Shown here: positions 27,692 to 51,332 of the stretch, piece by piece
Numbering within the stretch: position 1 is the first letter of the stretch
How the letters are laid out: the number at the start of each line of letters is the position of its first letter
DNA from: Rubidibacter lacunae KORDI 51-2
Lineage (GTDB): Bacteria; Cyanobacteriota; Cyanobacteriia; Cyanobacteriales; Rubidibacteraceae
Direction: 5' to 3'
Length of the DNA: 64,000 bases
Assembly (NCBI RefSeq): GCF_000473895.1
Contig: NZ_ASSJ01000017.1
Span: 1-64,000, forward strand
Translations under genes and position numbers: made by a program
The notes under the pieces: generated by a model
Told to the model about the DNA's origin: nothing
Seen by the model: the letters and a program-made list of their open reading frames with translations, nothing else
Database searches by the model: none

Positions 27692-28630
27692 AAAAAGATT
27701 TGAAGCTCGGCAGTTGAGTGCGCCCCCTTTTTTTGCCCAACAAATTTTCATCTAACCCCTTTTCCAAAGAGTCGGCTAACAAAAATTCATCTCGTCAATT
27801 GGCAACTTTAAGATTTTAAGAGAGTTCATCATATTTGATATGCGCTCAGCATGAGTTCGCTAGCTCGAAAATCAACTTCCGGTCGTGGCAAACACTTTTG
27901 TTGGAATGGTGAGACCCAATTAATTTGGGAAGTAGTGTTTGATATCTTTTCCCCAGGTACAAATTATAGAAGTCCCCTTTACTTAGGGCTTGCTGAAAAA
28001 GTCCACAAAGTGAATTTAGGGGACAGAGAGCTCATGAAATTAGGCTTTCGCCATCTAGCCCCAGATTTTTGCCCCTAGATCTCGGCTCAAGTGCAAGGGT
28101 TTTGAGGCTCTAGCAACCATAACCTTGCACTCCTCTGACGCAGAAAACGCTGGAACCTTCTCGCTGAAACAATTCCAGCCTTTTTCAGCAAGCCCTACTT
28201 AAAAGTATGCCAACTCCTGATGAAGCAACTTTTTTCCATAACACCGAAGGAATGCACTTTCGGGTACATTACGATCCCAATCGACAATCCAATCAGTGTT
28301 ATGGCGGGGCTCGAATAAATGGAGTACTCTTCAAGCCATACAAAAACAATAGGCTCTATCTTTTCTGTGTACCTCATCCACTGAGCAGAGCTATGCCGAG
28401 CCGCAGTCAGTTGCCGAACAAGTATCCGTGCCGGACCTATCTAAATCTGCCTGGTAACATTGCTTCTCCGCACGCACGGCAGCGATTGCAGCGCTCAACT
28501 GTACCCTCGGTGAGTTCACCTGAATTGGGTCAGTCTTGCCAAATTTGGACTGGGTCGCAAGCACCGTCGCTCAAGACCGGTCATAATAGGTAATTTGCGG
28601 TAACTCTCGCGAGCAGGAGTCACGAGTTCG
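27692..28630. other. 939-bp gap holding a MITE-like copy
   Basis: Apart from the 212-bp repeat at 27985-28196, nothing recognisable. Two frames (27851-28078 and 28207-28593) have no family and one runs into the repeat; I reject both. Confidence 0.5.
27985..28196 (+). mobile_element. MITE-like element, copy 1 (212 bp)
   Basis: Begins AGGGCTTGCTGAAAAA and ends with its inverted complement TTTTTCAGCAAGCCCT. It is flanked by the 4-bp direct repeat ACTT (27981-27984 and 28197-28200). An internal inverted pair GTGCAAGG/CCTTGCAC lies near the middle. The second copy at 50913-51124 is in the opposite orientation, is the same length and is clearly similar throughout. It has no transposase. Confidence 0.85.
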
Positions 28631-50744: not shown

Positions 50745-50912
50745 TCCCCTGCAATTTCCCAGAGTTCCACAGCGGCTTTTCTCTTAATTCAACAGTTGCT
50801 CGAACAAGTGCTTACCCGCGGGGTGACATGCAGGCACCCTTGCGCAGTTGTGTTCGGGAACTGAGGTTCTGATTCAATTGATTAGGCGCTGTTGCCATAG
50901 CAATATATATTT

Positions 50913-51124
50913 AGGGCTTGCTGAAAAAGGCTGGAAACCCTGCAATGAAAGGATCTCAGCGTTTTCTATGCCAGAAAAGTGCAAGGTTATAGGCACCAGA
51001 GCCTCAAAACCCTTGCACTTGGGCCGAGAATCCGAGGCAAAAAGCTGGGGATAGATGGTAAATGCCAGATTCCATAAGCTCTCTGCCTCCTAAATTCGTT
51101 TTGTGGACTTTTTCAGCAAACCCT
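50913..51124 (-). mobile_element. MITE-like element, copy 2 (212 bp, inverted)
   Basis: Same length as copy 1 at 27985-28196 but opposite orientation. Ends are AGGGCTTGCTGAAAAA and TTTTTCAGCAAACCCT. It is flanked by the direct repeat ATTT (50909-50912 and 51125-51128). The reverse complement aligns with copy 1 over its whole length, roughly four of five bases identical by eye. It lies between hlyD and psb28 and has no ORF of its own. Confidence 0.85.
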
Positions 51125-51332
51125 ATTTATACATTGCTGCAACTGACTTGCAAGCGAAAATTCAGGCCAGGCGGATTGCACCTTGCTGCAGATCGCCCGA
51201 GTTAACTTCCCAGTTCCGCACGCTTCAAAATGCCCAAGACGCCGACGGCCGAGCGCATTCGGGACCGAACCGGGACGTAATTGGCAAGCGGCTTTCCACC
51301 GAAGCAATGACATCCCGCGCTCTCTCGGCAAA

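Follow-up and report, generated by a model that had tools for sequence, protein, structure and literature searches.

Two similar repeats lie 23 kb apart and in opposite orientation in the stretch of Rubidibacter lacunae KORDI 51-2 DNA analysed here (64,000 nucleotides, hereafter the window), and they raise the question of what kind of element they are, by which enzyme they would be moved and whether they could rearrange the segment between them. The initial annotation had described two inverted MITE-like copies of equal length with common ends, and reading of the letters together with pairwise alignment bore this description out at both places. Copy A occupies positions 27986..28195 of the plus strand and copy B positions 50914..51123 of the minus strand. 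Both measure 210 bp when delimited by matches within the own genome and by scoring of the flanks, and their alignment gave 81% identity over the same length, with ends that are alike. The terminal inverted repeats are 16 bp long. Those of copy A, read from the letters after alignment of the ends, lie at 27986..28001 (left, plus strand) and 28180..28195 (right, minus strand), and those of copy B, located by an end-motif search and read in the same way, at 51108..51123 (left end in element orientation, GGGTTTGCTGAAAAAG, minus strand) and 50914..50929 (right end, plus strand). The ends of copy B match as had been announced, but the letters of its left end are GGGTTT rather than GGGCTT. Reading of the letters also placed two internal arms in each copy: in copy A, AAGTGCAAGG at 28089..28098 and CCTTGCACTC (consensus CCTTGCACTT) at 28123..28132, both on the plus strand, and in copy B, AAGTGCAAGG at 51011..51020 and CCTTGCACTT at 50977..50986, both on the minus strand. 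Outside the ends, the letters show TACTTA on either side of copy A (27980..27985 and 28196..28201) and TAAATA, as read on the minus strand, on either side of copy B (50908..50913 and 51124..51129); no strand is assigned to these target duplications. They are 6 bp long, where 4-bp duplications (ACTT and ATTT) had been proposed, and the unit given earlier as 212 bp is an element of 210 bp.

The search for further copies was carried out on the draft assembly of Rubidibacter lacunae KORDI 51-2, which holds 4,153,658 bases in 99 contigs and from which, according to the accessible part of the genome paper (PMC3910548), 27 short low-coverage contigs had been taken out. Comparison of copy A with this genome gave 43 match rows, with E values from 4.5e-107 to 5.8e-15, and the end motif, with up to two mismatches allowed, matched 101 times, against 0 in the reversed control. 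Copy search and end-motif search together yielded at least 47 complete copies, of which 46 were scored for duplications and one is a 233-bp copy on contig C15, as well as six fragments cut by contig edges (C35, C76, C89, C82, C75 and C70). The 233-bp copy (C15:21562-21794) contains a 21-bp internal repeat. A plasmid search with copy B returned no match. The two repeats of the window are members of a family of about 50 MITE copies in this marine cyanobacterium. In the available part of a survey of repetitive palindromes (PMC12306157), a table row for the same strain carries the values 4,240 and 857.

The family falls into two subfamilies. Copy A has 16 complete sisters at 95-99% identity (subfamily A), its further relatives being the C15 copy (98% over its longer piece) and an outlier, L029 (83%), and copy B has 27 sisters at 86-99% identity (subfamily B); copy A and copy B themselves are about 81% identical. 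The difference of about 20 percent noted earlier between the two window copies is therefore correct as a figure but does not reflect drift within a pair: one copy was sampled from each of two subfamilies, in which sisters are up to 99% identical. Some copies in the genome are identical to one another and form four groups, with 2, 3, 2 and 2 members; they suggest recent movement, and we infer that the family may currently be active.

Taken as 210 bp, the element runs from GGGYTTGCTGAAAAAG to CTTTTTCAGCAARCCC. With these limits, the two 6-bp flanks agree fully in 40 of the 46 complete copies, and the left flank is TANNTA in 34 of the 46. In ten copies the left 6-mer does not combine a first T with a last A (e.g. 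CACATA, TATATC, GAATTA), and in all ten the right 6-mer is identical to it. Since the flank varies along with them in every one of these exceptions, the outermost A and T of the former 212-bp unit belong to the target. The flanks differ in the remaining 6 of the 46 copies, five of which agree at 5 of 6 bases and one (L048) at 1 of 6. Members of the IS5 subgroup make 4-bp target duplications. An assignment of the MITE to that subgroup, with a 4-bp duplication, was considered and is ruled out, as the duplication is 6 bp both in the MITEs and in the related insertion sequences (ISs) described below. At two places, C4:104016-104443 and C35:1-294, two MITEs adjoin and have a single 6-bp duplication in common, and a duplicated site can therefore be used again as a target. 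Near a contig edge, at C75:5755-5776 (L056:1756-1777), a look-alike of the internal arm and loop is found directly outside the left end of a MITE.

Insertion sites were examined by removing the element and one duplication from the 45 of 47 copies that were taken with flanks; 43 empty sites could be scored, two being short of flank. An open frame of at least 600 nt crossed the empty site in 1 of 43 copies, compared with 74% of 2000 random points in the window, and one of at least 450 nt in 2 of 43, compared with 81% of such points. Judged by open frames, the copies therefore lie as a rule outside genes. The sole scored copy with a frame longer than 600 nt (852 nt) across its empty site is at C41:100871-101082, where it may interrupt a gene. 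Within the element itself the longest frame with a start codon measures 23-52 codons across the 47 copies, and the MITE has no transposase gene of its own. Copy number, target duplications and location outside long open frames strongly support the identification as a MITE with past mobility.

The transposase had been presumed absent. However, the same ends flank IS5-type transposase sequence at three contig edges of the same genome. MITE-like ends that run on into other sequence correspond to three IS right ends, on C86, C40 and C44, which have 16-17 bp in common with the MITE. They code for the C-terminus of a single transposase, in pieces of 198, 58 and 58 aa, and the two short pieces match the long one at 100% and 98% identity. 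Each of the three is truncated by a contig edge, as would be expected of a collapsed multi-copy repeat. The six bases adjoining these ends are TAATTA, CAGGTA and TAAATA. The transposase fragment matched Pfam DDE_Tnp_1_2 (E 1.1e-31) and the NCBIfam IS5_1 model (E 4.4e-44), in the latter case with 151 bits for a piece of only 198 aa, below the whole-protein cut-off of 275; four full-length relatives scored 411-453 bits, above that cut-off. Neither a complete IS nor an intact transposase gene of the IS5_1-type group with MITE ends was found in the draft assembly, nor were the N-terminal part of the transposase and the left end of the IS. Looking for further copies and for an IS with the same termini, as the initial annotation had advised, thus produced the copies and IS right ends with transposase sequence, but no complete IS in the draft. 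A second, weak match to the IS5_1 model (E 6e-6), at C41:135732-136094, perhaps marks a different group of transposases.

ISs of this kind were found in other genomes. A scan of contigs gave 34 loci with relatives, mostly cyanobacterial, along with four from Nitrospirota and single records from Acidobacteriota and Gammaproteobacteria; 14 of the 60 genomes drawn as relatives contain such a locus. Of 51 related loci, 32 allowed the calling of both ends, although four of these 32 ISs, of only about 1.0-1.2 kb, may be mis-called or degenerate. Identical 6-bp duplications flank 18 of the 32 and duplications with at most one mismatch 22, while TANNTA adjoins the left end in 28 and the right end in 27. 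Because of these TANNTA sites and 6-bp duplications, the ISs and the MITEs have not only the same ends but also the same target rule. The related ISs mostly measure about 1.65-1.83 kb, and the transposase is 507-547 aa long in the four that were examined.

The ISs also shed light on the interior of the MITE. When a set of 32 sources, some of which contain no left end, was searched with a model of the MITE, 16 gave reverse-oriented matches at the left end of the IS, with E values from 3.6e-12 to 0.0017. No leader match was obtained in nine sources with a called left end (L083, L085, L094, L095, L111, L119, L120, L122 and L123), the match in L119 being confined to the first 35 positions. Of the 15 ISs checked, 12 have a conserved in-frame ATG at a distance of 116-118 bases from the left end, and in L115 the distance is 142 bases; L103 and L110 have no ATG near the left end, and their open frames start later. 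The homology between MITE and IS stops just ahead of the conserved transposase ATG. By its sequence, then, the right half of the MITE is homologous to the IS leader, the stretch between the left end and the transposase start codon. For the left half, comparison with IS right ends revealed no homology apart from the terminal repeat and a few bases, and its source was not found.

How widely the MITE occurs was assessed with a sequence-only model built from 16 copies, most of them holding the internal motif. At E ≤1e-5 it matched 62 of 388 cyanobacterial genomes (the own genome included), in 34 of 160 genera, and the other 326 genomes gave no match. Among 57 MITEs taken from relatives, the two 6-bp flanks are the same in 38, and the left flank is TANNTA in 47; 42 of the 57 are 203-214 bp long, in a sample that leans to full-length matches of the model. 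This bias was controlled by a search with the end pair alone, without mismatches, in three length ranges of 31 bp each, which leave 169-197 and 229-257 bp outside them. It gave 97 elements of 198-228 bp in 24 of the 388 genomes (32 in Rubidibacter lacunae, the remaining 65 spread over 23 further genomes), compared with four elements of 138-168 bp in three genomes and five of 258-288 bp in four genomes; the reversed controls of this search gave no matches. Lengths near 210 bp therefore dominate among the lengths searched.

The internal arms are conserved as well. Eight of the 57 MITEs from relatives, whose ends were uncertain (L178, L180, L181, L182, L190, L198, L201 and L202), were left out before conservation was counted and the tree described below was built. 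Conservation was measured on 22 representatives of 51 MITEs, with mutual identities below 80% and a mean of 55%. It averaged 0.90 for CCTTGCACTT and 0.82 for AAGTGCAAGG, as compared with 0.94 and 0.91 for the two ends and 0.56 for the rest of the interior, and the mean of the whole 44-bp motif block was equalled by 2 of 132 segments of the same length. Of 23 elements recovered with the end pair alone, and with arm order and spacing left free, 17 had both arms with at most four mismatches in total, compared with 4 of 460 shuffled interiors; the other 6 fell short of this. Across 54 distinct MITEs the arms are paired in 447 of 540 cells, and 275 of 500 shuffles of the partners did at least as well; across 20 ISs they are paired in 141 of 200 cells, and 318 of 500 shuffles did at least as well. 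Both bases of a pair are changed in 2 of the 540 cells of the MITEs and in 4 of the 200 cells of the ISs. Because arm pairing does not exceed that of shuffles and double changes are few, a site read by a protein fits these counts better than a hairpin kept as a hairpin, and the internal inverted motif is a putative protein-binding site.

We consider it highly probable (about 0.9) that the MITE is moved in trans by the NCBIfam IS5_1-group transposase of an IS with the same ends, into TANNTA-like sites, and that its right half comes from the leader of the IS. According to this model, an IS whose 16-bp ends match those of the MITE would encode a DDE transposase of the group, and this enzyme would bind the ends of the MITE in trans and either cut the element out or copy it; insertion would take place at TANNTA-like sites outside genes, with duplication of 6 bp. 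The right half would have descended from the leader of such an IS, a stretch that starts at the left end and stops right ahead of the start codon. Tentatively, and with the odds somewhat against it, we propose in addition that AAGTGCAAGG...CCTTGCACTT is a third recognition site besides the ends, for the transposase or a host protein. Placed before the start codon of the IS, it might let one protein both repress transposase expression and act in transposition; the MITEs might have kept the motif and a length of about 210 bp as their mobilisation needs a set distance between motif and end, and might represent an old lineage travelling with the IS group through cyanobacteria.

The origin of the family could also be seen otherwise. 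Each lineage might have produced its MITEs afresh from a local IS through internal deletion, and the likeness of MITEs across cyanobacteria would then reflect the IS and not one old MITE lineage. Such an origin would agree with the homology between MITE right half and IS leader, but the MITEs of Rubidibacter lacunae and the IS right end of the same genome have only their ends in common. A tree built from a short alignment (96 nt) of the right halves of 56 MITEs and the leaders of 20 ISs, midpoint-rooted and with weak inner support, speaks to both sides: strict monophyly holds for neither group, as four MITEs fall outside the main clade (L205 alone, and L195, L077 and L073 grouped with the IS L083), yet 52 of the 56 MITEs form one clade (support 0.918) and 19 of the 20 ISs another (0.842). 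The tree speaks more for an old MITE lineage than for repeated local origin, which we regard as unlikely. It is more improbable still that the MITEs are a fossil family whose transposase has been lost. The draft does lack an intact transposase gene of the IS5_1-type group, but the three IS right ends with transposase sequence stop at contig edges in the manner of a collapsed multi-copy repeat, and several MITE copies are identical.

We see very little chance that the element is not a transposon but is kept as a structured RNA or cruciform. Whole copies do fold better than their shuffles (z -4.8 for copy A; for copy B, -7.7 when read on its own strand and -4.2 on the opposite one; -3.3 for L072), and without its ends the interior of copy B still gave a moderate z of -3.53, whereas that of copy A gave a weak -1.18 and the consensus fold of 16 copies consisted of the terminal stem only. 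A conserved RNA fold as the main constraint was rejected on this consensus fold, the interior of copy A and the arm-pairing counts, the interior of copy B being partly contrary. Least probable of all is an inversion, by recombination between copies A and B, of the 23-kb segment between them, for which their opposite orientation had been taken to provide. Each copy has its own matched duplication (TACTTA/TACTTA and TAAATA/TAAATA), and a single inversion would swap them; because both pairs are still matched, no net inversion has passed through the two copies since their insertion. Such an event is also unlikely because the longest identical run between them is only 24 bp.

What began as a pair of repeats is thereby turned into a defined MITE-IS system, with its ends, its target rule, a likely transposase group and a wide range among cyanobacteria. 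Through the common leader the MITE has a sequence link to the IS group that bears its ends, and the conserved internal motif bears on whether the ends alone suffice for the movement of small bacterial MITEs. A literature search found no description of the MITE family or of the IS group, most subscription papers, supplements and figures lying beyond its reach; with the end sequence, the matches listed were only papers unrelated by title and abstract, and with TANNTA the word appeared in none of the best matches listed. The evidence well supports a MITE family that is newly defined but of a known kind, with a partner in an IS5_1 group that follows a TANNTA 6-bp target rule.

Among known elements, Nezha is shorter, at about 134 bp. 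Going by the title of Zhou et al. 2008, cited in PMC10969869, it is an active MITE in cyanobacteria. The MITEs of Anabaena sp. strain 90, likewise cyanobacterial and compared here by their description only, measure 77-541 bp, with 132 of 147 intergenic and one group having three sets of inverted repeats, according to the accessible part of PMC3542288; there they are assigned to type II, since they show no clear resemblance to the inverted repeats of the ISs in that genome. The ISs of the NCBIfam IS5_1 group (NF033578) have the same terminal repeats and the same TANNTA 6-bp duplications as the family described here, and many have a leader homologous to the right half of the MITE, but they are mostly about 1.65-1.83 kb long and carry a transposase, while the MITE is gene-less. 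In the usage of the available part of PMC3542288, close counterparts are bacterial type I MITEs, mobilised by an IS with matching ends, which are likewise short, without a long frame, with ends common to an IS of their own genome, target duplications and many extragenic copies. Compared with these as described there, the present family differs in an interior with a conserved relative in the IS leader and in a length that stays near 210 bp across many genera.
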